Positions 33,988 through 62,168 of a DNA stretch of 64,000 nt are shown here, in pieces. Position 1 is the first letter of the stretch, and every line of letters starts with the position of its first letter. Source of the DNA: Deltaproteobacteria bacterium GWC2_55_46 (GTDB lineage Bacteria > Desulfobacterota > GWC2-55-46); the NCBI GenBank assembly GCA_001595385.3, contig LVEI03000001.1, forward strand, positions 2,423,344 to 2,487,343, read 5' to 3'. The position numbers and the translations under genes were made by a program. The notes under the pieces are model-generated. The model saw only the letters and a program-made list of their open reading frames with translations. It was not told the DNA's origin and searched no databases.

Positions 33988-35204
33988 GGCGGGCCGCGTT
34001 TTTTTCAAGGGCGGTTGCCATGTCCGGCGCCTCGGCTCTTCAGGCCCTGGCACACGTACTGCTTGAGAGGTTCTTCCCTGTGAGGGGGGAGATACGGAGG
34101 CTGCTGGTCATACAGCTTGGTCAGATAGGCGATTATGTCCTTACAGAGCCTTTCCTGAGGGCCGTAAAAGATGGTGGCAGGGGCGAGGTAACGGTGGCGG
34201 TGCTCCTCGATTCGATAAACGCCGACCTGTGCGCCGCCAGTGGGGTGGCCGACGAGGTCATAACCTATAACTCAAGGAAGTATACCAGGGGCACTGAGAG
34301 CTTCTTTCCTGCCGCTGAGCTCGGCAGAGCCCGTTATGATGCGGCCGTATGGCTGAGGGGCGACATGAAGGCATTCGCCTGGCTACTGAAAAGACGGCTC
34401 AGGTTCGTGAGCGCGGCCAAGTACCCGCTTCCGCTCAGGCGCTCCTGGTCCCCCGTTATTACCGGAAAGCCGGCGCAAGGCAGGTCCATGCACTATGCCG
34501 AATGCCTTGAAGACCTCTTCGGGCAGCTCTTCCCCGGCAGGCCCGGCATCTCCCGCGTCAACGCGGCGAGTCATCGCGAAGCGGCGTGCGAAAGGGTCTT
34601 CGTTCACATCGGATCGGGCAACGCCCTCAGAAGATGGCCGGCCGTGAGATACGCGGAACTGTGCAGGATGCTCCTCGAACGGGACGGCGCTACAAGGATA
34701 ACCCTCGTCGGTTCAGGGGCCGACGATGCCGTGGCGCTGCCAATAATGGATGCGCTTGTCGAGTACGGCGGCAGGGTCGAGAACCTGTGCGGCAGGATCG
34801 AGCTTACCGGGCTTAAGGGTCTCCTTTCAACAGGGGCGCTCTATATAGGTTTAGACAGCGGCCCGATGCACATAGCGGCCTCCGCCGGGATACCGATAGT
34901 AGCCATGATGGGCCCCCAGTCGCCCAAGGTATTCAGGCCATTGGGGACGCAGGATATTAACGTCGTCTACAAGGATTTTTTCTGTTCTCCATGCTGGCAG
35001 TTCTATTGCCTTCATAGAGCAAACGGGGCTGGGGCGTGCGTGCTGGCGATCTCGGCCGGCGAGGTCTTCAGGGCGGCTTCCAGTATCCTCGAAAGCAAGG
35101 ACGCCGGAGGGGCGACGGACGGTGATGAACTGATATCAAAGCGCGTCGGCGGTTCGCTGAGGCCGCGAAGGAGGGGAAAGAGTGAAGGTGCTGCTTCTTT
35201 ATAA
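33984..35204 (+). CDS. Family 9 glycosyltransferase (heptosyltransferase-like)
   Basis: About 406 residues from TTG 33984, with AGGGG eight bases upstream and TTGA overlap; ATG 34020 is an alternative. It shows LLVIQLGQIGDYVLTEPFLRAV, the hallmark N-terminal motif of ADP-heptose:LPS heptosyltransferases, and the C-terminal donor-binding region GLDSGPMHIAASAGIPIVAMMGPQSP. A late Cys segment (FFCSPCWQFYC) is also typical of the family. It acts in the cytoplasm on the growing glycan. The donor may be heptose or another sugar. Confidence 0.88.
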   Translation: MRRAAFFSRAVAMSGASALQALAHVLLERFFPVRGEIRRLLVIQLGQIGDYVLTEPFLRAVKDGGRGEVTVAVLLDSINADLCAASGVADEVITYNSRKYTRGTESFFPAAELGRARYDAAVWLRGDMKAFAWLLKRRLRFVSAAKYPLPLRRSWSPVITGKPAQGRSMHYAECLEDLFGQLFPGRPGISRVNAASHREAACERVFVHIGSGNALRRWPAVRYAELCRMLLERDGATRITLVGSGADDAVALPIMDALVEYGGRVENLCGRIELTGLKGLLSTGALYIGLDSGPMHIAASAGIPIVAMMGPQSPKVFRPLGTQDINVVYKDFFCSPCWQFYCLHRANGAGACVLAISAGEVFRAASSILESKDAGGATDGDELISKRVGGSLRPRRRGKSEGAASL

Positions 35205-36624
35205 CGTCTATTCCGACGAGCTTGGATCGAGCAGGCCGCCGTTGGGAACGGGCTACCTTGCGGAAGCGCTTGAGGCCGCCGGAGTCGATTATGACGTTAT
35301 CGATATGAAACTGGGGTATTCGGAGAAGGACGTGATCGAGAGGATCGGCCGGGGAAGATACGATTGCGTTGGGGTAAGTGTCTACACGGTCGGGCACAAG
35401 AAGTTCTTCGCCCTGTTGAAGACTGTGAAGGAGAGCTATCCGTCGGTCACCACCGTCGCTGGCGGGCCGCACATAACGATACTCGGCGCTCAGGTCCTCG
35501 AGGAGTACCCTGAGATCGACCTCGCCTTTGCCGGAGAGGCCGAGCAGTCCTTTGTGAGCTTCTGCAAGGGAGAGGAACTGAGGCGCATACCAGGGCTTAT
35601 CTACAGGGACGGCGGAAAAGTCGTCTCCGGCATGCCTTTTGAGAGGCCAACAGGCCTCGACAGCATCAGGTGGCCCAGGTACGGAAAATTCGAGCTCCAC
35701 AGGTACGCCAACGAGATAGGCGTCATCACCTCACGCGGCTGCCCGTACCCGTGCATATTTTGCTCGGTAGGCCTCACGCTAGGGAAAAAGGTAAGGGTGC
35801 GCTCCATACATGGCATAGGCGACGAGCTTGAATACTGGTACGGCAGGGGGAAGAGGATATTCAACTTTCTCGACGACAACTTTACCTTCTACAGGGAAAG
35901 GGTCTTCGATCTGTGCGACGAGATCGAGAGCAGGGGCCTCAAGGGGCTTACACTCAGGGCGTCCAACGGCATAAGGGCTGACCGTGTCGACAGGGAGATG
36001 CTCTTAAAGATGAAGCAGGCGGGTTTCAGGAGCTTCGGCATAGGCGTGGAGGCCGGCAACGACAAGGTCCTCAAGGCCCTCAGGAAGGGCGAGAGCATGG
36101 AGCAGATAGAGAACGCTATTAAGTTGAGCTGCGAGCTTGGCTTCGAGGTCTCGCTCTTTTTCGTCTACGGCACGCCGGGCGAGACCATGGGGGACATAGA
36201 AGACTCGATAAGGGTCGCCAGGAAGTACCCGGTCCTGAAGGCCGATTTTTATAACCTCATACCCTTTCCCGGCACCGAGCTATGGAAATGGGTGGAGGAG
36301 AAGAGGGCCTGGACCGGAGAGCCGATGGAGCTTTTGGACAGCATGGACAAGAACTTGAGGTTCTCCAGGGGCACGGGAAAGCCGTTCTTCACGACAGCAG
36401 AGCTCGGTACGGAAGACAGGCTTGCGCTTGCGGAAAGGCTGAGGGAGACGACCCTCGACATACAGAAGAAGGGTGTGGAGCGCATCTTCAAAAGGTACGG
36501 GGCGCTAAAGTACCCGCTGGCCTATCTCGCCTCCACCATCTTCTTTCAGAGGCTTTTTTTCAACAACAACCTCATAAGGAAGCTCTCGGATAAGGTGCGG
36601 TACCGTGGCGCGGGGGCCGCTTAA
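35182..36624 (+). CDS. B12-binding domain radical SAM protein, copy 1
   Basis: 480 residues, starting at GTG 35182 inside the GT9 gene. The N-terminal half is a cobalamin-binding-type Rossmann fold (PLGTGYLAEALEAAG, VAGGPHITILG). The usual D-x-H-x-x-G base-off motif is not visible, as in many such proteins. The radical SAM motif is CPYPCIFC (C-x3-C-x2-C), followed by FLDDNFTFYRERV and FGIGVEAGND. It may carry out methylation or another radical reaction on a glycan or lipid intermediate; related enzymes serve hopanoid, bacteriochlorophyll and antibiotic pathways. Confidence 0.87.
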   Translation: MKVLLLYNVYSDELGSSRPPLGTGYLAEALEAAGVDYDVIDMKLGYSEKDVIERIGRGRYDCVGVSVYTVGHKKFFALLKTVKESYPSVTTVAGGPHITILGAQVLEEYPEIDLAFAGEAEQSFVSFCKGEELRRIPGLIYRDGGKVVSGMPFERPTGLDSIRWPRYGKFELHRYANEIGVITSRGCPYPCIFCSVGLTLGKKVRVRSIHGIGDELEYWYGRGKRIFNFLDDNFTFYRERVFDLCDEIESRGLKGLTLRASNGIRADRVDREMLLKMKQAGFRSFGIGVEAGNDKVLKALRKGESMEQIENAIKLSCELGFEVSLFFVYGTPGETMGDIEDSIRVARKYPVLKADFYNLIPFPGTELWKWVEEKRAWTGEPMELLDSMDKNLRFSRGTGKPFFTTAELGTEDRLALAERLRETTLDIQKKGVERIFKRYGALKYPLAYLASTIFFQRLFFNNNLIRKLSDKVRYRGAGAA

Positions 36625-43512: not shown

Positions 43513-44448
43513 ATGAGCTTGAAGTCTTACCCGTCATCTTTGAGGAGCAGGTCAGGATGGTCAGAGCTGCTTGAACTGAAAAGGACGTTCGAGCCGCACG
43601 TCCATCAGATAGAGCCTACAAACAGCTGCCCCTATTCGTGTATTATGTGTCCGAGGCCCGCCCGCATGGAGCGTGAGGTCGGGTTTATGGATATCGAACT
43701 CTTCCACAAGATAATCGATGAGATATCCGGTTTTTCAGAGCCGGTCCGAAAAAAGGAGATAGAGCTTTTCCATTTCGGAGAATCGCTCCTCCACCCTCTG
43801 ATCGACGAGATGGCCGGATATGCCTCCGGTAAAGGCCTGAATATCACCCTTTCCGTAAACGCCCCGGAGCTTTCCCCCCGGCTGCTGGATAGGCTTGCCG
43901 CAAGCGGCCCATGCAGGATCATAATATCGTTCGACGGGTACGACGAAGAAAGCTATAGGGAGATACGCGGGAAGGGCGCGGATTATGAATTGGCCTTGGC
44001 AAACCTTGAATATGCCGCGGGCCTTGTAAGATCTGTCCTTGCCGGCACAAAGATCTCCGTCAGGATAATACGCCTCAACAGGAACAACCCGCGGATAGAG
44101 GACTTCAGGCGCCATTGGGAGTCCCTTGGGCTTCCGGTAGAGGTGCGCGAGTTCTTCCCGTGGACTGAAAAAGAGCTTACATCCCTTGGTCTGGTCCAGA
44201 AATACCCGCCTTTCATGCCCTGTCCCTTTCCCTGGCAATATCTTGTCGTGCAATGGGACGGCACCGTCGTGCCGTGCTGCAGGGATTACAACGGCGTCAA
44301 TCCCATGGGTAATGTCAGGAGCTTATCCCTTAAGGAGATATGGAACAGCGCGCTGTACGCTGACTTCAGGAGGCAGCACCGCACCGGAGAGTATGGCGGC
44401 AACGCTTTTTGCAGTGAATGCATGAATATTTTTTACACAGAGGGATAG
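43513..44448 (+). CDS. Radical SAM/SPASM enzyme leading the Dlt-like operon
   Basis: About 311 residues from ATG 43513; the frame is open to ATG 43414, and no strong ribosome-binding site decides the start. The cluster motif CPYSCIMC is near residue 40. The C-terminal SPASM region shows MPCPFPWQYLVVQWDG, VVPCCRDYNG, MGNVRSLSLKEIWN and FCSECMNIF. It overlaps the ligase gene (TAGTG). Its place at the head of an acyl-activating and MBOAT operon suggests it makes or modifies the acyl donor, or modifies a sugar that accepts it. Neither is shown by the sequence. Confidence 0.85.
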   Translation: MSLKSYPSSLRSRSGWSELLELKRTFEPHVHQIEPTNSCPYSCIMCPRPARMEREVGFMDIELFHKIIDEISGFSEPVRKKEIELFHFGESLLHPLIDEMAGYASGKGLNITLSVNAPELSPRLLDRLAASGPCRIIISFDGYDEESYREIRGKGADYELALANLEYAAGLVRSVLAGTKISVRIIRLNRNNPRIEDFRRHWESLGLPVEVREFFPWTEKELTSLGLVQKYPPFMPCPFPWQYLVVQWDGTVVPCCRDYNGVNPMGNVRSLSLKEIWNSALYADFRRQHRTGEYGGNAFCSECMNIFYTEG

Positions 44449-46016
44449 TGCTGGAGTCTGTTTTACAGAGGGGAGTCGCCCCTGAAGCGTCTGTCAGGGA
44501 GACCGTTTGCGAGGTCTTTGAGAAGGCCGTTCGTCACCATGGGGCAAATCCGCTCATAATCTTCGACGACGGCAGCTCTTTGAGCTACTCTGATGCCGGT
44601 GCTCTTGCGGCAGATATCGCGGGGCGATTGCAAGGCGTTGGCGTTGGCAAGGGCGACAGGGTACTCTCGGTTTCCGCCGCATCTGCTGAAGCGGCGCTCG
44701 TATTCTGGGCATGTATGCTTATTGGCGCGGTCTTCATCCCGGTGGACGGCCGCATACAGCCCGATAAGCTCTCCAAGGTCTTCAAAAGCACAGCCCCAAA
44801 AATAGTCTTCACAGGCCATGGATGGGCAGGCGCGTTTTCGGGTGTCAAGGTCGTCTCGTATTCCGCGGAGAGCGGCGTGGCGCATGGATCCCGGTTTCAC
44901 GAGTTCCTTGATGAGAGTGGCTCTGATTACCGTCCGGAGCCCGTCTCGCCAGCGGACGACGCGGTAGTCCTTTTCACCTCCGGCACCTCTGGCGAGCCAA
45001 ACGGTATTGTGCTCTCTCATGGCGCGCTTTCCGGAAGCGCGCGCCTGATGGCCGAGACCTATCAGTGGGGGCCCGAAGACAGGGTCTTCTCTATCGGGGA
45101 TTTTCATACCATGAGCGGGTTGAGAAACACGTGTGTCGCGACATTCTACCCCGGGGCCTCTTTCATAATCGCTCCCCAGGACTTAAGGGCAAGCGGCCCT
45201 GCATGCTCGGTCCTCATGGAAAGACTTGGCGCGACAATATTATGCGCTGTCCCGGCCTTCCTCGCCCAGTTCACCAGATTCCAGGAGAAGATATCAGGCG
45301 GGTTTGCAAAAAGCCTCAGGTTTGTCATGTGCACGGGGACTCTCCTTACGCCCTCTATCGTTGAATCTTTTGAAGAGCGCTACAAAAGGAGAGTGTTGAA
45401 TTATTACGGCCTGACAGAGACATCCGGGCTTTGCATAGGCGTTATTCCGGGGATGAAAAGGGAATACCCGGGCTCAATCGGCGTGCCTCTCGGCTGTTCG
45501 GTCATGATTGCCGGGCCTGACGGCAGGGAAGCTGCTCCAGGAGCCGCGGGAGAGCTTTTCATACGGACTGAGAACATCATGAGCGGCTATTATAACGACC
45601 CGTCCTTGACGGAGAAGGCTATCGTTGGCGGCTGGTTCAGGACAAAGGATTTCTGCCGCCAGGAGCCTGATGGCTCGATAGAGCTTCTGGGGCGCGTTGA
45701 TGACGCCTTCAAGGACCTGAGGGGAGAGCTTGTGCACCCATCCGAGATAGAGTCGGTCCTTGAGGCTTCTCCCCTTGCGCTCGAGGCTGCGGTCTGCGGC
45801 TTTGAAGCGGAAGACGGCCGCCCCGCGTCGGCGGCTTTCGTAGTCGCCAGTGAGAACGGGGTAGATGAAAAGGGGCTTGCAAGCGAATTGCGCCGCCAGG
45901 CGTTCGCCGCGCTTGGCCCTTACAGGACACCCGCTATTTTCATGGTCGTTGACTCGCTCCCAAGGGGGACGAACGGAAAGATACTTAGAAGAAAACTGAG
46001 GGAGACACTGCCATGA
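44448..46016 (+). CDS. AMP-forming acyl/aryl ligase (adenylating enzyme), without carrier domain
   Basis: About 522 residues from GTG 44448, which overlaps the radical SAM stop; the frame is open from ATG 44418. Adenylation motifs are VLFTSGTSGEPNGIVLSHG (A3 P-loop), NYYGLTETSGL (A5), WFRTKDFCRQ (A7), VDDAFKDLRGE (A8) and the terminal lysine in RGTNGKILRRKL (A10). The A4 area (GDFHTMSGL) lacks the FDxS pattern of alpha-amino-acid adenylating domains, so a plain carboxylic acid is more likely. It overlaps the next ligase by four bases. It activates an acid as acyl-AMP for transfer to a carrier or CoA. Confidence 0.85.
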   Translation: MLESVLQRGVAPEASVRETVCEVFEKAVRHHGANPLIIFDDGSSLSYSDAGALAADIAGRLQGVGVGKGDRVLSVSAASAEAALVFWACMLIGAVFIPVDGRIQPDKLSKVFKSTAPKIVFTGHGWAGAFSGVKVVSYSAESGVAHGSRFHEFLDESGSDYRPEPVSPADDAVVLFTSGTSGEPNGIVLSHGALSGSARLMAETYQWGPEDRVFSIGDFHTMSGLRNTCVATFYPGASFIIAPQDLRASGPACSVLMERLGATILCAVPAFLAQFTRFQEKISGGFAKSLRFVMCTGTLLTPSIVESFEERYKRRVLNYYGLTETSGLCIGVIPGMKREYPGSIGVPLGCSVMIAGPDGREAAPGAAGELFIRTENIMSGYYNDPSLTEKAIVGGWFRTKDFCRQEPDGSIELLGRVDDAFKDLRGELVHPSEIESVLEASPLALEAAVCGFEAEDGRPASAAFVVASENGVDEKGLASELRRQAFAALGPYRTPAIFMVVDSLPRGTNGKILRRKLRETLP

Positions 46017-47812
46017 GCCGTATCGTATCTGTCTTTGAAAACGCTGAAACAGTGAAGCCGGGAAAGCCCATGATGGTGACATCCGGCGGCGAGCTCACGT
46101 ACGGAGCGCTCCTTGAGCGCACGGCGAGGCTTACGGGACTGTTAAGAAAAGACGGCATATCAGCGGGCGACAGGGCTATAGTGTCGAGCAGGGATGACAT
46201 CGAGGCCGTTTGCGCCTTCATAGGACTCGCGCGTAACGGCATAGCCGCCGTGATGCTCGACGCGCGCTTGCCTTCCCCGGAATGGTCTGCTCTCGCGGAG
46301 GCGGCGAAGGCGAGATGCGCCTTTGTCGATGCTGATATCATTGGGCGGGCAGAAAAGACCACAGCTGTGTATGGGTTCGCCAAGACGGTCACAAAGGCCG
46401 GCATGCTTGGCAGGCTGCTTAAAAGGGAGAGGGCCGAGTACCCATCGTTCCTAGAAGGAATAGAGCCTGCCGACCCGCCAGGCGAGGTCGATGGAAGTCT
46501 CGACGCGTACATAATGTTCACTTCAGGGACGACCTCGCGCCCCAAGGGTGTAAGAATAAGCCATAAGGCCCTTTTTTCCCATCTCGGCACCCTTTCAAGG
46601 CAATTCGGCCTATGCGATGGGTCAAGGATACTGAACGTCCTGCCGCTAAACCATGCGGACGGTTTCGTCCAGGGACCACTGGCTGCCCTCTATAATCGCG
46701 CCACCGTATACAGGCCGATGGAATTCAGCATACAAAGGCTTACGGAACTCATGGACGCTGTCTACAGGGACCGGATAACCCACTTCGTCGCTGTCCCAGC
46801 GATGCTCTCGCTCATCCACAGGCTCGGCCAGGGCTCTGAGGAGAGCTTTACCACGGGGGACTTGCTGGCCGTCATCTCCACCGCCGGGTATCTTGAAAAA
46901 GAGCTCTGGGAGGGGTTCGAAAATAAGTTCATGGTCAGGGTGTCGAATGTCTACGGGCTTACGGAGACCGTGGCAGGAGGGCTTTTCAGCGGCCCCGGAG
47001 ACGCTGACCGCCGTGTAGGGACGGTTGGAAGGCCTGTGGACTGCGAGGCTATGATAGTCATCGAAGACGGCTCTCCCGCACCGGACGGGGAGCCTGGCGA
47101 GCTGCTTTTAAGGGGTGATAACGTCATGACCGGATATTTCGAGGATGACGAGGCAACAGGCCATGCGCTAAAGGACGGCTGGCTTCGCACAGGCGATATC
47201 GCGGTAGGGGAAGACGGTTTCTTCAGGATAGCCGGGAGGAAGAAGAACATCATCATCACCGGCGGACTGAATGTCCAGCCGGAGGAGGTTACCGAGGCCC
47301 TAAAGTCCCACGCCGATGTCCTGGAAGCGGTCACCTTCGGCGTCGAGGACAATACCTGGGGAGAGCTGGTGGCCTCCTGCGTAGTCCTCTCGCCCGGCGC
47401 GCGCGTTGGCCCTCCCGAGCTTGCTGATTGGTGCCGGGCAAGGGTGGCGCACTACAAGGTGCCCCATCGCATACATGTCTTTCAGGAACTTCCGAAGGGG
47501 CCTTCAGGCAAGGTGATCGTACCGGTGGCAAAGAAGATGGCCATGGAAGCCGGTTCGTCGGAGAAGACGTCCGGCAATTCGATCAGAGAGAAGGTATTGG
47601 GCGCCGCCGCGTCCACCTTCAAGGCGCCGGTCCATGAACTCTCAGAGTACTCGACCGCAGCGGATGTGGCGGGCTGGGACTCGCTTGCCCACCTTCAGTT
47701 CGTGGTTGCCCTTGAAGAGGCCTTTGATATAAGGCTGGAATCGGCTGACATAATCAGGATCGAGTCTATAGGCGAGGCTGAAAGGATTGTAGGTGAGAAG
47801 CTCTCGGTCTGA
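46013..47812 (+). CDS. AMP-forming ligase fused to an acyl-carrier domain (DltA-DltC-like)
   Basis: 599 residues. The adenylation domain (about 1-500) has IMFTSGTTSRPKGVRISH (A3), VYGLTETVAGG (A5), WLRTGDIAVGE (A7), GRKKNIIITGG (A8) and PKGPSGKVI (A10 lysine). The C-terminal 80 residues form a carrier domain with GWDSLAHLQ, where S557 would carry phosphopantetheine. The A4 area LPLNHADGFVQG is acyl-CoA-ligase-like. The fusion puts DltA- and DltC-like functions in one protein. It is coupled to the SGNH gene downstream (overlap 20 bases), so it should load the acyl group for the MBOAT step. Confidence 0.87.
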   Translation: MSRIVSVFENAETVKPGKPMMVTSGGELTYGALLERTARLTGLLRKDGISAGDRAIVSSRDDIEAVCAFIGLARNGIAAVMLDARLPSPEWSALAEAAKARCAFVDADIIGRAEKTTAVYGFAKTVTKAGMLGRLLKRERAEYPSFLEGIEPADPPGEVDGSLDAYIMFTSGTTSRPKGVRISHKALFSHLGTLSRQFGLCDGSRILNVLPLNHADGFVQGPLAALYNRATVYRPMEFSIQRLTELMDAVYRDRITHFVAVPAMLSLIHRLGQGSEESFTTGDLLAVISTAGYLEKELWEGFENKFMVRVSNVYGLTETVAGGLFSGPGDADRRVGTVGRPVDCEAMIVIEDGSPAPDGEPGELLLRGDNVMTGYFEDDEATGHALKDGWLRTGDIAVGEDGFFRIAGRKKNIIITGGLNVQPEEVTEALKSHADVLEAVTFGVEDNTWGELVASCVVLSPGARVGPPELADWCRARVAHYKVPHRIHVFQELPKGPSGKVIVPVAKKMAMEAGSSEKTSGNSIREKVLGAAASTFKAPVHELSEYSTAADVAGWDSLAHLQFVVALEEAFDIRLESADIIRIESIGEAERIVGEKLSV

Positions 47813-48713
47813 GGCGCGCCCGCTCCTGTGCGCGCCGCCGCTATATGTATGGTTCATCGTCGCTGCCATGCTGGCAGCTCTTTTTTTCGCAAGCCTGCCA
47901 GCCTTCAACCGCTATAACGTCGATGAAATTGGATTTTCTGAGGCCTCTGCCGGCAGACTCGGCTCTTTTCGGGGAAGGCATGGGGAAAAAGGCTTGAGGG
48001 TGCTCGCCATCGGCAGCTCTCTTATGGGAAAGGCGGTCTTTTTTGACGGCAGGATGGAGGCGCTGGCCAAGAGGCAGGGGCTCACGGGGATCGAGTTCAT
48101 GCGCATCAGCCGTCCCGACGGCGACCTCTCTACCTTCATGCCGCTTTTGAGCGATATGGCGGAGGCCGCGCCGGATATTATCCTGATCGAATCAGACAGC
48201 GTTTTCTACGACCGGCATATGGTCAAGAACGCCTTTGCAAGGGAGTACATGAGTTTTCTAAAGGCCATGCTCATGGAAAGCCTCAAGTCAAAGAGGCCGG
48301 TATTCCCCAAGCCGGAACAGGTCTTCATTGAAAATGACTTCGACCTTCCCGTAAAGTCTCGCCTGAACAAGGTGTCGCTCGACGAGACCCTCCTTAAATG
48401 GGATCAGAGGTCTTTGGCCGATATCGAAGAGATAGCCCCTTTTTTTAGCGATTTAGCGCGTAGAGGCATCAAGGCCGTGCTGGTCAGCATACCAAGGCAT
48501 CCGGAGTTTGAGAGGCTGGCGGGAGGCCATGGCCCGGAGACCGCTGTGCTCCAAAAGAGGCTTGAGCGTTATTACGGCGTTAAATCGATAAGCTTTCAAG
48601 GTGAGGCCGGGGCTGAATGCTACTCGGACCATGCCCATCTCAACGGAGAAGGGCGCTTGAGATTTTCACTCTGGCTTATAGAGGTGCTTAAAGGGGGCAG
48701 AGGCGTAGTATGA
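47793..48713 (+). CDS. Membrane-anchored SGNH/DltD-like protein
   Basis: 306 residues from GTG 47793. A single N-terminal membrane helix (about 17-37) is followed by an extracytoplasmic domain. RVLAIGSSLMGKA (GSS at 74-76) matches the serine block of SGNH/DltD proteins. The C-terminal CYSDHAHLNGEGRLRFS, with D279 and H282, matches the D-x-x-H block. It overlaps the carrier-ligase and the MBOAT gene (ATGA). By analogy with DltD, it would receive or direct the acyl group onto the envelope polymer outside the membrane. Confidence 0.8.
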   Translation: MRSSRSEARPLLCAPPLYVWFIVAAMLAALFFASLPAFNRYNVDEIGFSEASAGRLGSFRGRHGEKGLRVLAIGSSLMGKAVFFDGRMEALAKRQGLTGIEFMRISRPDGDLSTFMPLLSDMAEAAPDIILIESDSVFYDRHMVKNAFAREYMSFLKAMLMESLKSKRPVFPKPEQVFIENDFDLPVKSRLNKVSLDETLLKWDQRSLADIEEIAPFFSDLARRGIKAVLVSIPRHPEFERLAGGHGPETAVLQKRLERYYGVKSISFQGEAGAECYSDHAHLNGEGRLRFSLWLIEVLKGGRGVV

Positions 48714-49849
48714 ACCTGGTCTCTGTTCAGATGCTCGGCTGGATAGCGGCGACGGTCGTCATCTTTTGGGCCGCTCCGCGTAGTCTTCAGCCCTATGTAG
48801 TTGCCGCTTCAAGCGCCCTTTTGCTTCTGTTCTTCTCGCCTGTCTCTCTCGCGGTGCTCTCTGTTTTTACCGTTCTTGGCTATGTCCCGATGAAATACGG
48901 GCGGCGATCGGCGGCAGGGGCGCTGGCAGCCGGCGGCGCCGTTGCGGCAATATTTCTATGGTTCAAGTCAGGGACCGCTTTTGGCGGGCCGCTTGTGCCG
49001 CTGGGGTTCGGGTTTTATACGCTGAGAGCCCTTCATTACTCGCTGGACTCAATAAAACGAACGCTCCCGCCGCATACCTTCGGGCAGTTTTTAAGCTACA
49101 TGTTCTTTCTCCCGACCGTTATCGCCGGTCCCATAAACAGGTTTCAGGATTTTCACAGGGAGCTGTCGCGAAGGAGGTTTGACAGGGGGCTTTTTTCAAA
49201 TGGATGCGAAAGGATCCTCTATGGTTTTTTTAAGGTCGTCGTGCTCGGCAACTACGAGGTCTCTCATATATTGCGCCTCAGGATCGAGGCCATGGAAGCG
49301 CGCCATGAGGTCCTTGCCTCATACCTTGACTGCGTCAGATACGGGCTCAACCTGTATTTTCAGTTCTCCGGATACTCGGATTTGGCCATCGGCTTTTCGA
49401 TGCTCCTCGGCTTCAGGATAGCCGAAAACTTCAATTACCCTTTTCTCGCGCGGAACATAGGCGAGTTCTGGAAAAGATGGCACATAACGCTTTCGAGCTG
49501 GTGCAGGGATTATGTCTACAAGATGGCCCTTTCCGCGAGCAGGCGGCCATGGGCCGCGGTAATGGCCTCAATGCTTGTTCTCGGGCTCTGGCACGAGCTG
49601 TCTCCAAGGTATCTTGCCTGGGGGGTCTATCACGGCGCGGGCATAGCGGTATGGCAGGGCTTCCAGAAGGTGAAGCAGGGTATTCCGGATATTCCGATGA
49701 TGAGTTTTGCAGGATGGAAGTACATAGCGGATGGAGCTTCTTATCTGCTGACTATTAACTTCGTGATACTCGGCTTTGCTATAACCAAGGAGCCTGACCT
49801 GGCTTCAGGGCTTAATGTGCTTGGAAAAATACTTTTTTTCTGGATTTGA
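48710..49849 (+). CDS. MBOAT-family acyltransferase (DltB/AlgI-like)
   Basis: 379 residues with about ten membrane segments. The family motifs are present: YMFFLPTVIAGPINRFQDF, YSDLAIGFSMLLGF, FWKRWHITLSSWCRDYVY (first conserved histidine) and LGLWHELSPRYLAWGVYHG (active-site histidine region). It overlaps the DltD-like gene by four bases and is followed three bases later by the 45-residue protein. It should pass an acyl group from the cytoplasmic carrier across the membrane onto a glycan. The N-terminal cytoplasmic extension is short compared with AlgI. Confidence 0.9.
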   Translation: MNLVSVQMLGWIAATVVIFWAAPRSLQPYVVAASSALLLLFFSPVSLAVLSVFTVLGYVPMKYGRRSAAGALAAGGAVAAIFLWFKSGTAFGGPLVPLGFGFYTLRALHYSLDSIKRTLPPHTFGQFLSYMFFLPTVIAGPINRFQDFHRELSRRRFDRGLFSNGCERILYGFFKVVVLGNYEVSHILRLRIEAMEARHEVLASYLDCVRYGLNLYFQFSGYSDLAIGFSMLLGFRIAENFNYPFLARNIGEFWKRWHITLSSWCRDYVYKMALSASRRPWAAVMASMLVLGLWHELSPRYLAWGVYHGAGIAVWQGFQKVKQGIPDIPMMSFAGWKYIADGASYLLTINFVILGFAITKEPDLASGLNVLGKILFFWI

Positions 49850-49852
49850 GGC

Positions 49853-49990
49853 ATGTACGGGTTCTTAAGAAAGTTTTTACCAAAAGCCACAGCAGATGCC
49901 CTCATCATCTTCTGGTACATACTGCTTATATTCCTTGTGATAGCGCTTTCTCATGGCGGACACGGCGAGTTCAGGTATCTTAATATATGA
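49853..49990 (+). CDS. 45-residue DltX-like single-pass membrane protein
   Basis: A short gene starting three bases after the MBOAT stop and ending at TGA 49990. The protein has a short basic start (MYGFLRKFLPK), one membrane helix (about 17-33: ALIIFWYILLIFLVIAL) and a polar tail, SHGGHGEFRYLNI. The last six residues, FRYLNI, fit FxYxx[hydrophobic], close to the C-terminal FxYxxF of DltX, a protein of about 47-50 residues from Gram-positive dlt operons that works with the MBOAT DltB. Size, topology, gene position and tail all agree. Gene start has weak ribosome-binding sequence (GGATTTGAGG). Confidence 0.72.
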   Translation: MYGFLRKFLPKATADALIIFWYILLIFLVIALSHGGHGEFRYLNI

Positions 49991-50020: not shown

Positions 50021-50149
50021 TTATTCTTTGCCTGAAGAAGCCATCTCGACGTCGTAAGGGCTGACATGTCCGAGGTGGCTGTGACGCCTGGTCCTATTGT
50101 AGAAGATCTCGATATAGTCGAAGAGGTCGGCTTTCGCCTCCTCCCTGGA
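50021..50149 (-). pseudogene. IS3-family transposase (OrfB) C-terminal remnant
   Basis: Reading the minus strand from 50149 to the stop at 50021 gives a 42-residue tail with REEAKADLFDYIEIFYN, then RRHSHLGHVSPYDVE. This is the well-known end of the integrase-type transposase of IS3-family elements. No DDE core and no OrfA are present upstream; the frame runs into unrelated sequence. It is therefore a truncated relic, the only minus-strand coding trace I support in the window. Confidence 0.82.
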
Positions 50150-50425
50150 GAAAAGAAAAGATATTTTAGGCACTGGATGCGCCACGGCAGGAAAGAGCAA
50201 CCCCGGTCATTGGGAATGCCAGCGGCTCGTAAGGACAGCTGAAGTTCCCCTTTGCAAAACATCTCCAAAAGGATATAATGTGTTCAATCTCATATAAGCC
50301 GTATTTTGCTGGTTTCCACTTCACGTTATTTCCAACACCTCATCCATTGCCGCTACTCCAGTTGACAAAGAAAATCCAAACCGGCGTACAGCGGCACACA
50401 CCCTTATTCCGATAGTTTTATAAAA
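50150..50425. other. AT-rich spacer between the IS relic and the sensor kinase
   Basis: About 276 bases without a gene I can support. The base composition is lower in GC than the genes around it. It may include further eroded IS sequence, but nothing readable remains. It holds a good sigma-70-type promoter candidate (50251-50279) for the two-component system. No ribosome-binding site is obvious before the TTG start at 50426. Confidence 0.5.
50251..50279 (+). promoter_or_regulatory. Candidate sigma-70 promoter for the two-component system
   Basis: A perfect -10 hexamer TATAAT (50274-50279) is preceded at exactly 17 bases by TTTGCA (50251-50256), a four-of-six match to the -35 consensus. Transcription would start near 50286, giving a leader of about 140 bases before the kinase gene. 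It lies downstream of the IS relic and points at the kinase. Confidence 0.5.
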
Positions 50426-53609: not shown

Positions 53610-53825
53610 ATGGCAGTCGAGAAAACGATGGCGTCTTCAAGCCTCGTGGAAGTGGTAGACCGCATCCTTGACAAGGGGATAGTCATAGATGCCTGGGCCA
53701 GGGTTTCCCTGGTAGGCATCGAGCTCCTTGCAATCGAGGCAAGGGTGGTATGCTCCTCCGTCGAGACCTTCCTCAAGTACGCTGAGGCGATAGGTCTCAC
53801 GGCAACAGAGTCAGCCACTGCCTGA
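53610..53825 (+). CDS. gvpA: Gas vesicle structural protein GvpA
   Basis: 71 residues, the right size for the main gas-vesicle shell protein. The conserved core is plain: [37 protein letters not shown] and [12 protein letters not shown], the two-strand and helix pattern of GvpA. A perfect AAAGGAGGTG ribosome-binding site precedes the ATG, as expected for a highly made protein. It is the first gene behind the sigma-54 promoter. A hairpin follows at 53854. Two further GvpA-family genes are at 60428 and 62948. Confidence 0.95.
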
Positions 53826-53853
53826 CGGCGATGATCTTGGCATCCTTGGGGTT

Positions 53854-53879
53854 TAGAGGGCGCCCCTTGACCCCCTCTA
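53854..53879 (+). promoter_or_regulatory. Hairpin between gvpA and the rest of the operon
   Basis: TAGAGGG (53854-53860) pairs with CCCTCTA (53873-53879) over a 12-base loop, 29 bases after the gvpA stop. No T-run follows. In other gas-vesicle operons structural gvpA message outnumbers downstream messages, so a processing or partial-termination stem at this point is reasonable. The gap from 53826 to 53933 holds no other gene I support. Confidence 0.5.
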
Positions 53880-53933
53880 CCGAGAGCGCCTCAAGCATGC
53901 CCCGGATCATCCCGCGAAGAAAAGGGAAGGGAT

Positions 53934-54557
53934 ATGGACCATTCAGAGTCTGTGATGGAAGCCGGGCTTCAGATAGTAAGGTCTTTCGAGAAAAGCGCCG
54001 CCGCTCTGATAGATCTTGTAAAGGAAACCGCTGGCTGCCTTGAGGAGGAGTGCTCGGAGCAGGATGCTATGCTGAGAGAGCTCAGGGACAAGCTGTCGAG
54101 AGAGGGGCTGAGAAAGAAGGACTTCGACGCCATCATGGGCCGCTTGCAGACCAGGGCCGGAGAACTCCGGGGAGAGATAAAGACTGCGATCGAGGCCTTT
54201 TTGAGGGAAGAAGGGGAGTTCGTGCGTTTTCTCGAGTCAATGGTGAACGGGACTTCAGAGACAACAGGGTATCTCGGCAGCGAAAGGCTCCCCAAGCTCA
54301 GGGAATGCGAGCACAGGGTGGCTGCTGTCCTTATGGAGCTTCAGATAGAGCAGGCTACATTAAATGGCGAGCTTAAACGGCTCCTCTCGATAAGAGAGGG
54401 CGTTAGCATAAAGGATTTCAAGTTTTCGGTCAGGACGCTAAAGCTCAGGCAGGATGAGAGCCGGGGCGCGATGGGCAGGGTGATCGAGGACTTCTACAGG
54501 GCCAGGCAGGATGTACTGGCCCGCTGGCAGGCCGTGTTCAGCGCCTGCAATGGATGA
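53934..54557 (+). CDS. Coiled-coil protein of the gas-vesicle operon, unrecognised family
   Basis: 207 residues, predicted almost wholly helical, rich in Glu, Lys, Arg and Leu, with a heptad-like pattern through most of its length. There is no signal peptide, membrane helix or catalytic motif. GGAAGGG lies just before the ATG. It contains three cysteines near residues 34-40 and around 130 (CLEEEC, ECEH). It sits between gvpA and gvpN, where other organisms often encode GvpC-like shell-strengthening proteins or other accessories. I do not recognise a family; shell-associated or scaffold roles are inference only. Confidence 0.6.
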   Translation: MDHSESVMEAGLQIVRSFEKSAAALIDLVKETAGCLEEECSEQDAMLRELRDKLSREGLRKKDFDAIMGRLQTRAGELRGEIKTAIEAFLREEGEFVRFLESMVNGTSETTGYLGSERLPKLRECEHRVAAVLMELQIEQATLNGELKRLLSIREGVSIKDFKFSVRTLKLRQDESRGAMGRVIEDFYRARQDVLARWQAVFSACNG

Positions 54558-54609
54558 TCATGCCGCTAAACTCCCCGGCGATTACCCGGGTAAAGACCAG
54601 GAGGATGCC

Positions 54610-55095
54610 ATGTCCATATTAGATGATTTCAGGTCGATGACTCACGAAATATCCGCTGCCTACGACATCAGGGCCGGTGAGCTCGCTTCCATCAAGCGGC
54701 ACATCCGCACCATGCTCGGCGACCTCAGGCGCACCCGGAGGGAAGAGTCCCGGAAGCTTGCCGCCGAGCGCAGGAAAGAGGTCGCACACATAAAAAAGCA
54801 GGTTGAAGGCATCAAGAAGGAGACCGCCAATTCCCTCAGGGACTTCAGGAAGACCACCCTTTCCGGCATCAAAATGGAGACCGAGGACCGCAAGGGTGAG
54901 GTGATCGACATGCTCGGGAGCTTCAGGAAGGATTTCATCGATGGATTCAGGAAAGAGATGGAGGGTATGACATCCGCCTGGGGGGACCTGGTACAGGGCC
55001 TCAGGGCCAAGAGAAACCAGGTGAGAACCGGGCAGAACCTGCCTGAGGCGAAGTCGGGAAAAAGGAAAAGGCATGTGGCAAATCGCGCCGCCTGA
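54610..55095 (+). CDS. Repeat-bearing basic helical protein, possible GvpC analogue
   Basis: 161 residues from ATG 54610, chosen because AGGAGG lies seven bases upstream; the frame is open further back. It is strongly helical and basic. Short repeats of the form hydrophobic-L-x-x-[FL]-R recur at about residues 3 (ILDDFR), 35 (MLGDLR), 75 (SLRDFR) and 101 (MLGSFR). Longer similarity holds between 35-58 and 75-98. GvpC is a helical protein of imperfect repeats that wraps the shell. The likeness is in design, not in recognisable sequence, so the function is a hypothesis. Confidence 0.6.
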   Translation: MSILDDFRSMTHEISAAYDIRAGELASIKRHIRTMLGDLRRTRREESRKLAAERRKEVAHIKKQVEGIKKETANSLRDFRKTTLSGIKMETEDRKGEVIDMLGSFRKDFIDGFRKEMEGMTSAWGDLVQGLRAKRNQVRTGQNLPEAKSGKRKRHVANRAA

Positions 55096-55147
55096 TCCTG
55101 TTACATGAACCGGTCCCAAGGACCTGAAAGATCATGGAGACAAACGC

Positions 55148-56149
55148 ATGCAAGATGAATTCACGACGGTGCTTGAGCCCCGGAAGATGCCCGATTTCGT
55201 TGAGACACCTTACATAAACGAGGTCACCGAGCGGGCCCTCGGCTATGTAAGGGCGGGCTTCCCGGTGCACTTCAGGGGCGTATCCGGAGCAGGAAAAACC
55301 ACTCTGGCCATGCACCTTGCCGCAAAGATCGGCAGGCCCGTGGTGATCCTCCACGGCGACGAGGAGCACTCCACCTCTGCCCTCGTGGGAGGCGAGCAGG
55401 GCTACAGGATGAGAAGGGTGGTGGACAACTTCATCCATTCGGTCCTCAAGACAGAGGAGAGCTTCCAGAAGACATGGGTGGACAGCCGCCTCACCCTCGC
55501 CTGCAAATGCGGTTTCACGCTTGTGTATGACGAGTTTACGCGCTCAAGGCCGGAGACGAACAATATCCTGCTCTCCATTCTTCAGGAGAGGGTCCTCGAC
55601 CTGCCTGCCACGCGTGATGGATATGTAAAGGTCAGTCCCCAGTTCTCAGCCATATTCACCAGCAACCCGGAGGAGTACGCGGGTGTGTACAGGAGCCAGG
55701 ACGCGCTCAGGGACAGGATGGTCACGCTTGACCTGGAGCACCCCGATAGGGAGACCGAGGTAGCGGTCACTATGGCGAAATCCGGGTTGCCCAAGGCTCA
55801 AGCCGAGCGGATTGTGGCGGTAGTGAGGGACTTGAGGGAGTCAGGAAAATGCGAGTTCGCGCCCACTGTCAGGGGTTGCATCATTATAGCGAAGACCCTG
55901 AGGATCAGGGGCGGTTCGGCCGACTCCGGTTGCGCGTCGTTCAGGGAGATCTGTGCCGACGTCCTTTCCTCCGAGTCCAGCCGGGTGGGCTCTATCGGGA
56001 ACACCAGGAAAGTCAGGAAGCTCGTAGGCGAGCTCATTGACAGGCACTGCGCCAAGGCGTCCCTGAAAGACCCGGGCCGCAAGGGGGCCGGTGAAAATGA
56101 CGGCGCGGGAGCAGGCCTGCGCTTGACGGCGATAAAGGGGGTTTCATGA
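55148..56149 (+). CDS. gvpN: Gas vesicle AAA+ ATPase GvpN
   Basis: 333 residues. Walker A is GVSGAGKTT (44-52) and Walker B is LVYDEF (125-130), with the MoxR/NorQ-like arrangement of GvpN. FVETPYINEVTERALGYVRAGFPVHFRG at the N-terminus and FTSNPEEYAGVY are diagnostic. The C-terminal tail after about 275 is variable. It overlaps the next small gene by four bases (ATGA). GvpN is an ATPase needed for growth of full-size vesicles. Confidence 0.93.
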   Translation: MQDEFTTVLEPRKMPDFVETPYINEVTERALGYVRAGFPVHFRGVSGAGKTTLAMHLAAKIGRPVVILHGDEEHSTSALVGGEQGYRMRRVVDNFIHSVLKTEESFQKTWVDSRLTLACKCGFTLVYDEFTRSRPETNNILLSILQERVLDLPATRDGYVKVSPQFSAIFTSNPEEYAGVYRSQDALRDRMVTLDLEHPDRETEVAVTMAKSGLPKAQAERIVAVVRDLRESGKCEFAPTVRGCIIIAKTLRIRGGSADSGCASFREICADVLSSESSRVGSIGNTRKVRKLVGELIDRHCAKASLKDPGRKGAGENDGAGAGLRLTAIKGVS

Positions 56150-56445
56150 AAAAGCAGATAGCCGGCCTCTCCAGCATGAGGACATGCCGGAAGGTGAAGA
56201 TAAGGTCGGCCATCGGGTCTTCCACCGGAGGCTATCTGGACCTGTACATCATGGACCTCGAGAGTAGAAGGTTCCAAAAGGAGCTCCTGACAGTGGAGAA
56301 ACGGAAGCGCTGGCTGGAGTCCGAGCTCAAGCGTCTCGGGAAAGAGCAGGAGCGCGTAAAGAAGGAGATGCCCCGGAGCAGCCCCCGGCCTTCAAGAACA
56401 AAGCCCCAGGGCAAGGCCCTGAAGACGATGATAATGGATTATTAG
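56146..56445 (+). CDS. Small GvpV-like gas-vesicle protein (tentative)
   Basis: 99 residues. A basic N-terminal part with KVKIRSAIGSSTGGYLDLYIM is followed by a charged helix, MDLESRRFQKELLTVEKRKRWLES, and a Pro/Lys/Arg-rich tail. The Y-L-x-L-Y turn followed by a coiled coil reminds me of cyanobacterial GvpV, but I cannot verify this. It is coupled to gvpN and abuts the gvpF/L gene (TAG then ATG). It is most likely an assembly accessory. Confidence 0.6.
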   Translation: MKKQIAGLSSMRTCRKVKIRSAIGSSTGGYLDLYIMDLESRRFQKELLTVEKRKRWLESELKRLGKEQERVKKEMPRSSPRPSRTKPQGKALKTMIMDY

Positions 56446-57192
56446 ATGGAGGAAGGCAGTTATCTGTATTGCATCATCGGGACCGGACAGGCGAGGAACT
56501 TCGGCCCTGTCGGCATAGGCGGCTGCAACGACGAGGTCTCGACCATAAGTTATGGAGACGTATCGTGCGTTATCAGCCGCTCCCCTCTCAAGGAATACGC
56601 CCTCTCCAGGGAGAACCTGCTCTGCCATCAGAGGGTGATAGAGACGGTGATGAAAGACTACACGGTCCTGCCGGTAAGGTTCTCGACCATATCGGCGAGC
56701 CCGGAGGATATAAGAGGTCTCCTCAGAAAAAGACTCCCGGAGTTCAGCGGCCTTTTGAAGCAGATGGACGGAAAGGTGGAACTGGGCCTCAAGGTCATCT
56801 GGAAGGAGATGGGGCTTATATACGGCGAGGTCCAGGAAGACCCGGAGATAAAGCGGGTCAAAGAGGATTTGGAGGGCAGGCGCGGCGGGACGCTTTATGA
56901 AAAGATAGGCCTTGGCAGGTCGGTAGAGGAAGCCCTTGGCAGGAAGAGGGACGACGAGGCCGATTCAATCGTCTCGGCCTTTAAAGGGCTGTATTCGGAT
57001 ATGAAGAGGAACAAGACCCACGGCGAGAGCATGTTACTGAACGCGGCCTTCCTGGTCGACAGGGCCTCAACAGGCGGGTTCGACGCCATAGTGCAGGACC
57101 TCGACCGGCAAATTGGCGGGAGGGTATTGCTCAAGTACGTGGGGCCTGTGCCCATATTCAATTTCGTCAACATTGTTGTCGAATGGAACTGA
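56446..57192 (+). CDS. Gas vesicle protein GvpF/GvpL family, copy 1
   Basis: 248 residues. The N-terminal SYLYCIIGTGQ, the middle RVIETVMKDYTVLPVRFSTI and the C-terminal segment VLLKYVGPVPIFNFVNIVVE are typical of GvpF/L. The family consists of a ferredoxin-like N-domain and a helical domain, and its members bind GvpA before or during assembly. It starts directly after the preceding stop and is followed by Hsp20. It is the first of three family members in this operon, and the only plain one with its length. Confidence 0.9.
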   Translation: MEEGSYLYCIIGTGQARNFGPVGIGGCNDEVSTISYGDVSCVISRSPLKEYALSRENLLCHQRVIETVMKDYTVLPVRFSTISASPEDIRGLLRKRLPEFSGLLKQMDGKVELGLKVIWKEMGLIYGEVQEDPEIKRVKEDLEGRRGGTLYEKIGLGRSVEEALGRKRDDEADSIVSAFKGLYSDMKRNKTHGESMLLNAAFLVDRASTGGFDAIVQDLDRQIGGRVLLKYVGPVPIFNFVNIVVEWN

Positions 57193-57205
57193 GAGGAGGA
57201 CGGCA

Positions 57206-59880
<2,675 letters not shown>

Positions 59881-59888
59881 AGGATAGC

Positions 59889-60140
59889 ATGGGTTTCCTG
59901 TTGGACGACATTATACTCTTCCCCGTCAAGGGTGTTGCCTGGATAGGGCAGCGGCTCAAGCAGGCGGCAGACGATGAGATGCTCGATAGCTCGAAGGTGC
60001 AGGGTGAGCTGATGGAGCTTCAGATCCAGTTTGAGCTCGGCGCCATATCGGAAGAGGAGTACGCCAGGAGGGAAGGCGAACTCCTCGAGAGACTTGAAGA
60101 GATTAAAAGGCTTAAAGAACGGGCCTCGGGAGGCGAATGA
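59889..60140 (+). CDS. gvpG: Gas vesicle protein GvpG
   Basis: 83 residues, standard for GvpG. MGFLLDDIILFPVKGVAWIG at the N-terminus is the family's mark, followed by a charged helix with LQIQFELGAISEEEYARREGELLERLE. A GGA-rich sequence (AATAGAGGATAG) precedes it. GvpG is a minor protein required for vesicle formation that interacts with other accessory Gvps. Confidence 0.92.
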   Translation: MGFLLDDIILFPVKGVAWIGQRLKQAADDEMLDSSKVQGELMELQIQFELGAISEEEYARREGELLERLEEIKRLKERASGGE

Positions 60141-60153
60141 ACCGGAGAGAAAC

Positions 60154-60417
60154 ATGCCCATAAGCTTAAGCGAGATAATAATCAAGACGAGGAAGGAACT
60201 GCAAAGCATCACAGGCCTCGATGCCTCATCCACCGTAAAGACCGTGAGGGATGAGAAGGGCTGGCACATCTTCGTAGAGATGGTCGAGAAGCACTCCATC
60301 CCGGACGGTATGGATATCCTCGCCACCTATGAGGCTATCCTGGACCTCGATGGCAATCTGACGGAGTTCAGGCGCAGGGGCTTGCGCAAGCGCATGGACA
60401 CGGCGGTAACGGAATAG
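60154..60417 (+). CDS. gvpO: Gas vesicle protein GvpO
   Basis: 87 residues from ATG 60154, with GGAGAG just ahead; the frame is open upstream inside gvpG. The pattern ELQSITGLDASSTVKTVRDEKGWHIFVEMVEKHSIPDG and ATYEAILDLDGNLTEFRR is that of GvpO: a helix followed by a curled sheet. GvpO is essential for gas-vesicle formation in several bacteria and archaea. Confidence 0.9.
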   Translation: MPISLSEIIIKTRKELQSITGLDASSTVKTVRDEKGWHIFVEMVEKHSIPDGMDILATYEAILDLDGNLTEFRRRGLRKRMDTAVTE

Positions 60418-60427
60418 GGGCAATGGC

Positions 60428-60793
60428 ATGACGGTAAAGGCCGCGCATACAGAGTATACGATTCTGGATGTCGTTGACAGGATCCTCGACAAAGGGCTTG
60501 CCATAAACGCCGACATCTCCATCTCGATAGCGGGCACCGAACTGCTTGGGATAAAGATCCGGGCGGCGCTGGCGTCTTTTGAGACTGCCGCGAAGTACGG
60601 GCTTGAGTTCCCGAGCGGGGTTGAGCGGGGCAGCCCGGCCTGGCAGGATGCAGGGGTTTTGAAGGAGAGCTGTCCCGGCTGCGGCAAAAAGCAACCGGCC
60701 AGGGAACTCCTGGAGCAGCGCTGCCCCTGGTGCGGCTGGATGAGCGCGAGCGCAAAGGAGCGCGAAACGTCCTTGATAATGGAGCTGAAATGA
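60428..60793 (+). CDS. GvpA-family protein (GvpJ/GvpS-like) with a C-terminal zinc ribbon
   Basis: 121 residues. Residues 10-60 are a GvpA-type core ([38 protein letters not shown]). The extra C-terminal part contains CPGC (82-85) and CPWC (99-102), spaced as in a zinc ribbon, with SCPGCGKKQPARE before the second pair. Plain GvpA or GvpJ proteins do not carry this. It overlaps the GvpL-J gene (ATGA). It may be a minor tip or nucleation protein that also binds metal or a partner. Confidence 0.85.
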   Translation: MTVKAAHTEYTILDVVDRILDKGLAINADISISIAGTELLGIKIRAALASFETAAKYGLEFPSGVERGSPAWQDAGVLKESCPGCGKKQPARELLEQRCPWCGWMSASAKERETSLIMELK

Positions 60794-61818
60794 AAGCCCC
60801 GGTATTCTTTATTCATGGGATCGTAAGGGGGACCGGGGGCACAGCCCAACTTCCCGTTTTGAATTCTGCGGAAGTCCGCGCCCTGAACTATCGGGATATG
60901 GCCTGCCTGATCTCAGGCCCGTTCCCTGCCGGTCCGGCTGAGGGCACAAGTGCTCTCGCCGATATGCTTACAATGCACCATTCCGTCCTCGAGCAGGCGA
61001 TGGATAGGGCACGGGCGGTCCTGCCTGTCAAGATGGGGGCGAAGTTCACGTCAGACGGGCAGGTAGTGGACTTGATGGAGAGGGCATACACGGAATTCTC
61101 AAAGAGGCTCGATGTCCTCGAAGACAGGATCGAGGCGGATCTTACGGCGTATTGGCAGGATCTGGACGGGATGATAAAGGGGATAGCCGCAGTGGACGGG
61201 GAGATAACACTGCTCAGGGAAAGGATACAGGGCAGGCCGGCCAATGAGACGCTTGAAGAGAGGATCAGGGTCGGATCGGCCATAAAGGACAGGGTCGAGA
61301 AAAGGCGCGTGAAGGCGCAGTCTCTTATCCTGGAGAGGCTCGGTAAAGAGGTCTGCAGGTCCAGGGTGCTGGAGCTTGCGGATGACAGGATTGTCCTGAG
61401 CTGCGCCTTGCTGATAGATCGGAAAAAGTTGCAGGGCTTCGAGAAAGCCCTGGATGAGGTCAACTCCATCCTGGAAGAGAAGGTCCGGCTGAGGTATGTC
61501 TCTCCCCTGCCGCCGTACTCTTTTGCCATGCTGGAAGTGAAAGAGGCGGAGTATGAAGAGGTGCTCAGGGCGAAAAGCCTTTTCGGGCTCGGGGACGAGT
61601 TCACCCCTGCGGACATAAAGCAGGCATACCATAACATGGCCCTCGAACTCCATCCTGACAGCGACCAGGACAATGCGGCCCTCAATGCCGGGTTCGAGGA
61701 CGTTAAAAAGGCATACGAGGCGCTGAGGAACTTCTGCCAAAGCGGCAGATGCTCTTTCAGGCAAGGCGGTCTCCAGAGCTTCCTTTATATAGAAACCAGA
61801 GGCCAGGAGGCGGCCTGA
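60790..61818 (+). CDS. GvpF/L-family protein fused to a J domain
   Basis: 342 residues from ATG 60790. Residues 1-250 are a GvpF/L domain, seen from AVLPVKMGAKFTS in the middle and VRLRYVSPLPPYSFAMLEV at its end. Residues about 262-312 look like a J domain, with LFGLGDEFTPADIKQAYHNMA, the HPD signature (288-290), and FEDVKKAYEAL. HPD stimulates the ATPase of DnaK, and a dnaK lies 1.4 kb downstream. The protein therefore links a GvpA-binding module to a chaperone recruiter. The J domain is compact. Confidence 0.88.
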   Translation: MKAPVFFIHGIVRGTGGTAQLPVLNSAEVRALNYRDMACLISGPFPAGPAEGTSALADMLTMHHSVLEQAMDRARAVLPVKMGAKFTSDGQVVDLMERAYTEFSKRLDVLEDRIEADLTAYWQDLDGMIKGIAAVDGEITLLRERIQGRPANETLEERIRVGSAIKDRVEKRRVKAQSLILERLGKEVCRSRVLELADDRIVLSCALLIDRKKLQGFEKALDEVNSILEEKVRLRYVSPLPPYSFAMLEVKEAEYEEVLRAKSLFGLGDEFTPADIKQAYHNMALELHPDSDQDNAALNAGFEDVKKAYEALRNFCQSGRCSFRQGGLQSFLYIETRGQEAA

Positions 61819-61841
61819 GTGAAAGGCAGACGGTTGAAGAC

Positions 61842-62168
61842 ATGCCGATTGAGTTGAACGAAAAGAATATAAAAAAAGGGGTGCTGTCCCTTGTTCTGGC
61901 GCTCGTCGATATCCTGAGAGATGTACTTAAGCACCAGGCCGTAAGGAGAATGGAAGGCGGAAGGCTCTCCGGAGAAGAGGTCGAGAGGCTCGGCAGGGCG
62001 CTTAAGGACATCGACACAGCGGTCGAGGAGCTTAAAGAGGAACTCGGCATAATGGACGCTGTCCGGTCGGTCAGGGAAGGTCTTGACGGGGCTGTTGGCG
62101 AGGCGCTGGGAGCAGCCTTCGCGCAGGCGGAAATGAAGGGGAGCAATGCATATGCAGAAAAGGCCTGA
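61842..62168 (+). CDS. gvpK: Gas vesicle protein GvpK
   Basis: About 108 residues from ATG 61842; no strong ribosome-binding site is seen, and the frame is open upstream. The conserved helix KGVLSLVLALVDILRDVLKHQAVRRMEGG followed by GEEVERLGRALKDIDTAVEELKEELGI is diagnostic of GvpK. The C-terminal tail is variable. It overlaps the next gvpF/L gene. GvpK is an essential accessory protein in most gas-vesicle clusters. Confidence 0.9.
   Translation: MPIELNEKNIKKGVLSLVLALVDILRDVLKHQAVRRMEGGRLSGEEVERLGRALKDIDTAVEELKEELGIMDAVRSVREGLDGAVGEALGAAFAQAEMKGSNAYAEKA

Follow-up and report, generated by a model that had tools for sequence, protein, structure and literature searches.

The window, i.e. the whole stretch of 64,000 nucleotides that was analysed, contains at positions 43513-49990 six genes, all on the plus strand, which encode, in this order, a radical SAM protein (rSAM), the ligases LIG1 and LIG2-ACP, an SGNH protein, an MBOAT protein and a microprotein of 45 aa. 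Such a coupled six-gene order had been claimed in the initial annotation and was confirmed, all six genes being found in the stated order on the same strand, with the Pfam domains in agreement. The features of the region are as follows:

43513..44448, + strand: radical SAM/SPASM protein, 311 aa (Pfam Radical_SAM and SPASM)
44418..46016, + strand: LIG1, stand-alone AMP-forming ligase, 532 aa (Pfam AMP-binding)
46013..47812, + strand: LIG2-ACP, AMP-forming ligase with a C-terminal carrier domain (Pfam AMP-binding and PP-binding)
47793..48713, + strand: membrane-anchored SGNH protein in the DltD-like position (invariant residues, predicted SGNH fold)
48710..49849, + strand: short DltB-like MBOAT, 379 aa (PF03062)
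49853..49990, + strand: DltX-like microprotein, 45 aa (one membrane helix, C-terminal F40-R-Y42-L-N-I)
50024..50200, - strand: IS-type integrase core remnant, rve_2 (Pfam E 6.8e-07), outside the operon

By their coordinates the genes overlap by 31 nt (rSAM/LIG1), 4 nt (LIG1/LIG2), 20 nt (LIG2/SGNH) and 4 nt (SGNH/MBOAT), and the MBOAT gene is separated from that of the 45-mer by 3 nt. The rSAM start originally placed at 43513 agrees with the start position of the homologues in the alignment, a longer start being possible at 43414. No family match was found in Pfam or NCBIfam for either the SGNH protein or the 45-mer.

The operon adjoins a polysaccharide locus of the lipopolysaccharide type. 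This locus also encodes a further SPASM radical SAM protein (4766-5773), which shares about 31% identity with the operon rSAM, and a B12-binding radical SAM protein (35182-36624). A foreign origin by composition was considered and rejected, the GC content being 55.8% in the operon versus 57.8% and 56.5% around it. On the downstream side, the rve_2 remnant stands between the operon and a two-component system, behind which there is a gas vesicle cluster (53610-62940) of GvpA, two GvpL/GvpF proteins and AAA ATPases; part of this cluster keeps its order in the family member G119. The genome of G119 shares the two-component and gas vesicle genes of this flank, and the operon does not precede them there; the lipopolysaccharide-side flank was not found in this genome, and so no exact empty site is claimed.

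Distribution of the operon family

A single genome-collection scan with the MBOAT core as query returned 17 loci, 14 of which (L053-L066) contain the operon family, complete or partial. The other three (L067-L069) are ordinary MBOATs and were used as outgroups together with L114 and L115, a more distant MBOAT-ligase-sulfotransferase set. The latter (L114, 7535-12851; L115, 7568-12941) comes from two genomes that belong to the same order as Caulobacter ginsengisoli; its carrier was confirmed in L114, and it possibly represents another branch of the operon family.

LIG2-ACP and MBOAT are present in all 14 loci, and LIG1 in 12 of them (L055 is truncated by the contig end, and L065 yielded none). 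The SGNH gene is located between LIG2 and MBOAT in nine loci (L053-L060 and L066) and upstream of LIG2 in L065; L061-L064 have no SGNH gene between LIG2 and MBOAT, and encode after the microprotein a protein of about 380-400 aa that is SGNH-like by eye only. The microprotein was found in 12/12 loci whose contig reaches that far, L054 and L055 ending earlier. Whole-genome searches added two further operons, L107 (genome G409) and the partial L108 (G542). The carriers span several phyla, with representatives in Deltaproteobacteria, Planctomycetota, Caulobacterales, Roseitalea, Oceaniradius and Acidimicrobiales. Since the core recurs in L053-L066 across several phyla, with Phe40 and Tyr42 of the 45-mer kept, the operon is not a chance association. 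Conservation of the gene order elsewhere had been set as the test of the original proposal; when run, it upheld the order of the core, though not the position of the rSAM gene, which moves around the core or is absent.

No second operon copy was found with the MBOAT and rSAM queries in the 198 genomes of the window's phylum, where only ordinary MBOATs and remote rSAMs were returned. The plasmid and viral collections yielded ordinary MBOATs only, with no match to the LIG1 query in plasmids and no operon relative in the peptide-pattern scans of the viral collection.

The assumption that the acyl group goes to the neighbouring lipopolysaccharide-type polysaccharide is not supported, as the operons of the relatives stand among unrelated genes (L053, L057, L058, L066), the copy of genome G199 lies beside pilin-type genes, and in the window an IS-type integrase remnant lies just downstream. 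A link of the lipopolysaccharide locus to the operon was likewise rejected, this neighbourhood being absent in the relatives with flanks available.

MBOAT, microprotein and SGNH protein

The MBOAT protein (PF03062; His258 and His295) has DltB among solved sequences as its closest relative and scores 179 bits with the DltB equivalog model TIGR04091, for which the cut-off is 375, i.e. it is homologous yet outside the equivalog. In PatA, the invariant tyrosine of an FXYXXF motif near the C-terminus is acylated, and the same has been reviewed for DltX; the shuttle motif is carried by a separate microprotein in DltX and by the own C-terminus in other MBOATs (PMC12148441). The F-x-Y-x-x-hydrophobic pattern was found within the last 60 residues of all 26 ordinary MBOATs of the window's phylum versus only one of the 14 operon-family MBOATs (L058), where it lies inside an apparent membrane helix. 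The microprotein encoded after the MBOAT has F-x-Y in every copy read; the 45-mer of the window has one membrane helix and ends in FRYLNI, whose Phe40 and Tyr42 do not vary among the copies examined; it is thus a DltX-type microprotein with a C-terminal F-x-Y shuttle motif. The shuttle motif of this family sits, as in Dlt, on the microprotein and not on the MBOAT.

The SGNH protein has one N-terminal membrane helix. Its assignment, initially a guess from the sequence, is backed by the invariant Gly74, Ser76, Asp279 and His282 and by the predicted fold: the AlphaFold2 model (mean pLDDT 75) has SGNH hydrolases as structure matches, with DltD structures among the weaker Foldseek matches. All three components of an MBOAT-SGNH envelope acyltransferase, namely the MBOAT, the SGNH protein and the acyl-shuttle tyrosine, are present with their catalytic residues.

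Ligases and carrier

In the alignment with homologues and controls, LIG1 has the A10 lysine 521 and an Arg236 that is invariant in the family. LIG2-ACP has the carrier serine Ser557 in GWDSL and an H-x-D-G motif with the invariant Asp216. The LIG1 of L056 (1932-3665) lacks the A10 catalytic lysine (GS replaces GK) and may have an altered role there. Among solved chains, LIG2 is nearest to acyl-CoA synthetases and LIG1 to a peptide synthetase adenylation domain.

The identification of either ligase as DltA was rejected: with the DltA model TIGR01734 they score 98 bits (LIG2) and 85 bits (LIG1), far below the cut-off of 560 and comparable to an unrelated ligase of the same genome (86 bits). The cargo is therefore probably not D-alanine, and the earlier expectation of another acyl group is in line with these scores. 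The reading of the substrate from the ligase pockets was abandoned. The invariant H-x-D-G of LIG2 is as in CaiC, but its Asp lies one alignment column off the amino-acid-binding Asp of EntF, and hence no amino or cationic substrate is claimed for LIG2.

Radical SAM enzyme

The rSAM has the cluster motif CxxxCxxC (Cys39, Cys43 and Cys46) and the SPASM cysteines 237, 255, 256, 300 and 303, all invariant in the alignment of homologues, with both Pfam matches above the cut-off. The nearest solved sequences are BtrN and DesII, which share with it the radical SAM and the SPASM or twitch domain; the BtrN match spans the SPASM part only, and the DesII match the core only. Full-length membership in the BtrN or DesII subfamily was rejected, all the listed NCBIfam equivalog and subfamily models remaining far below their cut-offs (e.g., DesII, 24 of 450 bits), with no model for BtrN among those compared. 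The best Foldseek matches of the predicted fold are sugar-type enzymes, including BtrN and DesII, but VIA-align ranks the peptide maturase SuiB equal to or above them, according to which the substrate may also be a peptide or a glycan. No characterised member of this subfamily was found.

A profile built from five copies retrieved full rSAM copies with 567-598 bits in the window genome and in those of L053, L054, L056, L057 and L058; the L055 genome has a partial copy, located where a contig starts. All seven carriers have the operon, nearby or on a contig fragment. Among the 193 genomes of the class of G201 the subfamily was found in G201 only, with the next rSAM at 208 bits versus about 570, and among the 198 genomes of the window's phylum in the window genome only, the others being remote. 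Thus, the rSAM is a sharply separated subfamily, present only together with this operon (seven genomes). More distant rSAM genes, about 36% identical and directly followed by an SGNH-like gene, occur in polysaccharide-type loci of the window's phylum (L126, 9601-12144; L127, 9444-11983).

The rSAM gene precedes LIG1 in the window, in L053 and in G199 (L054), where it overlaps the LIG1 start on another contig, like the window arrangement; it follows the microprotein on the same strand in L056 and L058 and on the opposite strand in L057. Its occurrence in seven genomes and three arrangements substantiates the earlier view of the gene as a real, conserved part of the operon. The ten other operon genomes (those of L059-L066, G409 and G542) have no rSAM, single absences being soft because several of the operon genomes are incomplete assemblies. 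The rSAM operons require two changes on the MBOAT tree and three on the ligase tree, and the rSAM-less L066 is the well-supported sister of L057, which has the gene; the position of this pair on the tree suggests that the rSAM was lost or replaced. The existence of operons without the rSAM, including the close sister L066, means that it is dispensable for the relay.

Putative exchangeable tailoring enzymes

The operons of L059 and L060 (Caulobacterales) are followed by a gene whose product combines a Trm112-like zinc ribbon with a methyltransferase-like domain, and in L107 (G409) LIG1 carries a 43% identical region as an N-terminal fusion. This protein appears to replace the rSAM in three of the ten rSAM-less operon genomes. 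The Trm112p and Methyltransf_11 matches are both under the Pfam cut-offs, and its possible identity as a methyltransferase is a weak assignment, to be taken as a lead. A sulfotransferase is encoded between LIG2 and MBOAT in L065, and the distant L114/L115 sets also carry one. The rSAM, the methyltransferase-like protein and the sulfotransferase seem to be exchangeable tailoring enzymes around a constant relay. The fusion in L107 links the exchangeable enzyme with activation of the acid and is the best hint that it participates in the acid supply.

Comparison with the known systems

The DltXABCD system for D-alanylation of teichoic acids in Gram-positive bacteria shares with the operon the short DltB-like MBOAT, the F-x-Y microprotein, the phosphopantetheine carrier, the adenylating ligase and the membrane SGNH protein, and the Dlt-like logic first proposed for the locus is supported. 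In contrast to DltXABCD, the operon has non-DltA ligases, a second ligase, an added rSAM, a microprotein encoded after the MBOAT and an SGNH protein without a DltD family match; there is no separate carrier protein DltC, the carrier being fused to LIG2, and the genome has a lipopolysaccharide-type locus. The dlt-like operons of Gram-negative bacteria such as Dickeya and Bordetella contain DltA homologues and are not known to include a radical SAM gene. In agreement with the initial annotation, which knew of no rSAM in the Gram-negative dlt-like operons, no paper linking a Dlt-type operon with a radical SAM gene was found in the literature searched, mostly outside the subscription journals.

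The O-acetylation systems of the PatA/PatB and AlgI/AlgX type in Gram-negative bacteria likewise pair an MBOAT with an SGNH protein and relay the acyl group by way of a tyrosine (PMC12148441), but they use the C-terminal motif of the MBOAT itself, without carrier or microprotein, and PatA uses acetyl-CoA, whereas the present operon has a carrier and bears the motif on the microprotein. As the MBOAT-SGNH pathways other than Dlt have neither a carrier protein nor a DltX-like microprotein (PMC12148441), the operon family described here extends the Dlt architecture.

Proposed pathway and its alternatives

The most probable function of the operon (with a probability of roughly 0.6) is a Dlt-type envelope acylation with a cargo other than D-alanine, in which an exchangeable enzyme would produce or alter the acyl group. 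LIG2 would activate a carboxylic acid with ATP and load it onto the phosphopantetheine of its own carrier domain. By homology with the proven DltBCDX relay, the MBOAT would then move the acyl group through the inner membrane and place it on Tyr42 of the microprotein. The SGNH protein would accept it from there on Ser76 and esterify an envelope polymer outside the membrane. An envelope acylation relay is indicated by the conserved core, the invariant Tyr and Phe, the absence of the motif from the MBOATs, the carrier serine and the SGNH fold, and its course from the carrier through the microprotein Tyr to the SGNH Ser, judged from homology and motifs, is very probable. The rSAM and LIG1 might form the cytoplasmic supply side, where the acid would be made, activated or remodelled before or during its carriage, and in sister operons the methyltransferase-like protein appears in the slot of the rSAM. 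The action of the rSAM on the acyl group, for which the small-molecule substrates of its nearest solved sequences, BtrN and DesII, speak, has an even chance or a little better.

An alternative with about one chance in four is that the rSAM modifies the acceptor, e.g., an envelope-polymer sugar or the nucleotide precursor of that sugar, with an ordinary acyl group. The substrates of BtrN and DesII, which are among both the nearest solved sequences and the best Foldseek matches, are an aminocyclitol and a nucleotide sugar, and polysaccharide-type loci harbour the distant rSAM relatives (about 36% identity), two of which stand beside an SGNH-like gene; however, in the relatives the operon itself is not found beside sugar or polymer genes, and the exchangeable protein is once fused to the acid ligase, not to a glycan enzyme. 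It is improbable that the acyl group goes to a secreted or lipid-linked small molecule of a natural-product pathway, with the MBOAT relay serving as export. Natural-product clusters typically contain a stand-alone ligase, a carrier and rSAM or methyltransferase genes, and the operon stands alone in its genomes, but none of the loci read has additional genes for biosynthesis or export linked to the operon, and the acceptors of the characterised MBOAT-SGNH pairs are polymers of the cell envelope or exopolysaccharides (PMC12148441, PMC9558356). A true dlt operon in a Gram-negative bacterium, with the rSAM as an accidental neighbour, is the least probable, for its DltB-like MBOAT and Dlt-like microprotein and carrier are outweighed by ligases at 98 and 85 bits against the DltA cut-off of 560 (86 for the unrelated ligase), by two ligases, a fused carrier and an SGNH protein with no DltD family match, and by the rSAM association kept in seven genomes.

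For the preferred pathway of envelope acylation with a non-D-alanine cargo, the presence of the carrier and microprotein together with different ligases in several phyla suggests a general role for the carrier-microprotein relay in the delivery of unusual acids. The operon context also assigns a defined biochemical setting to an uncharacterised rSAM subfamily, and the cultured carriers of the core, including Caulobacter ginsengisoli and Oceaniradius stylonematis, are a possible entry to finding the acids. Tentatively, and at somewhat less than even odds, the envelope acylation of Gram-negative bacteria may thus be modular, with a constant carrier-MBOAT-microprotein-SGNH relay and a swappable radical SAM enzyme, methyltransferase or sulfotransferase, by which different bacteria would place different, as yet undescribed, radical- or methyl-modified acids on their surface polymers.
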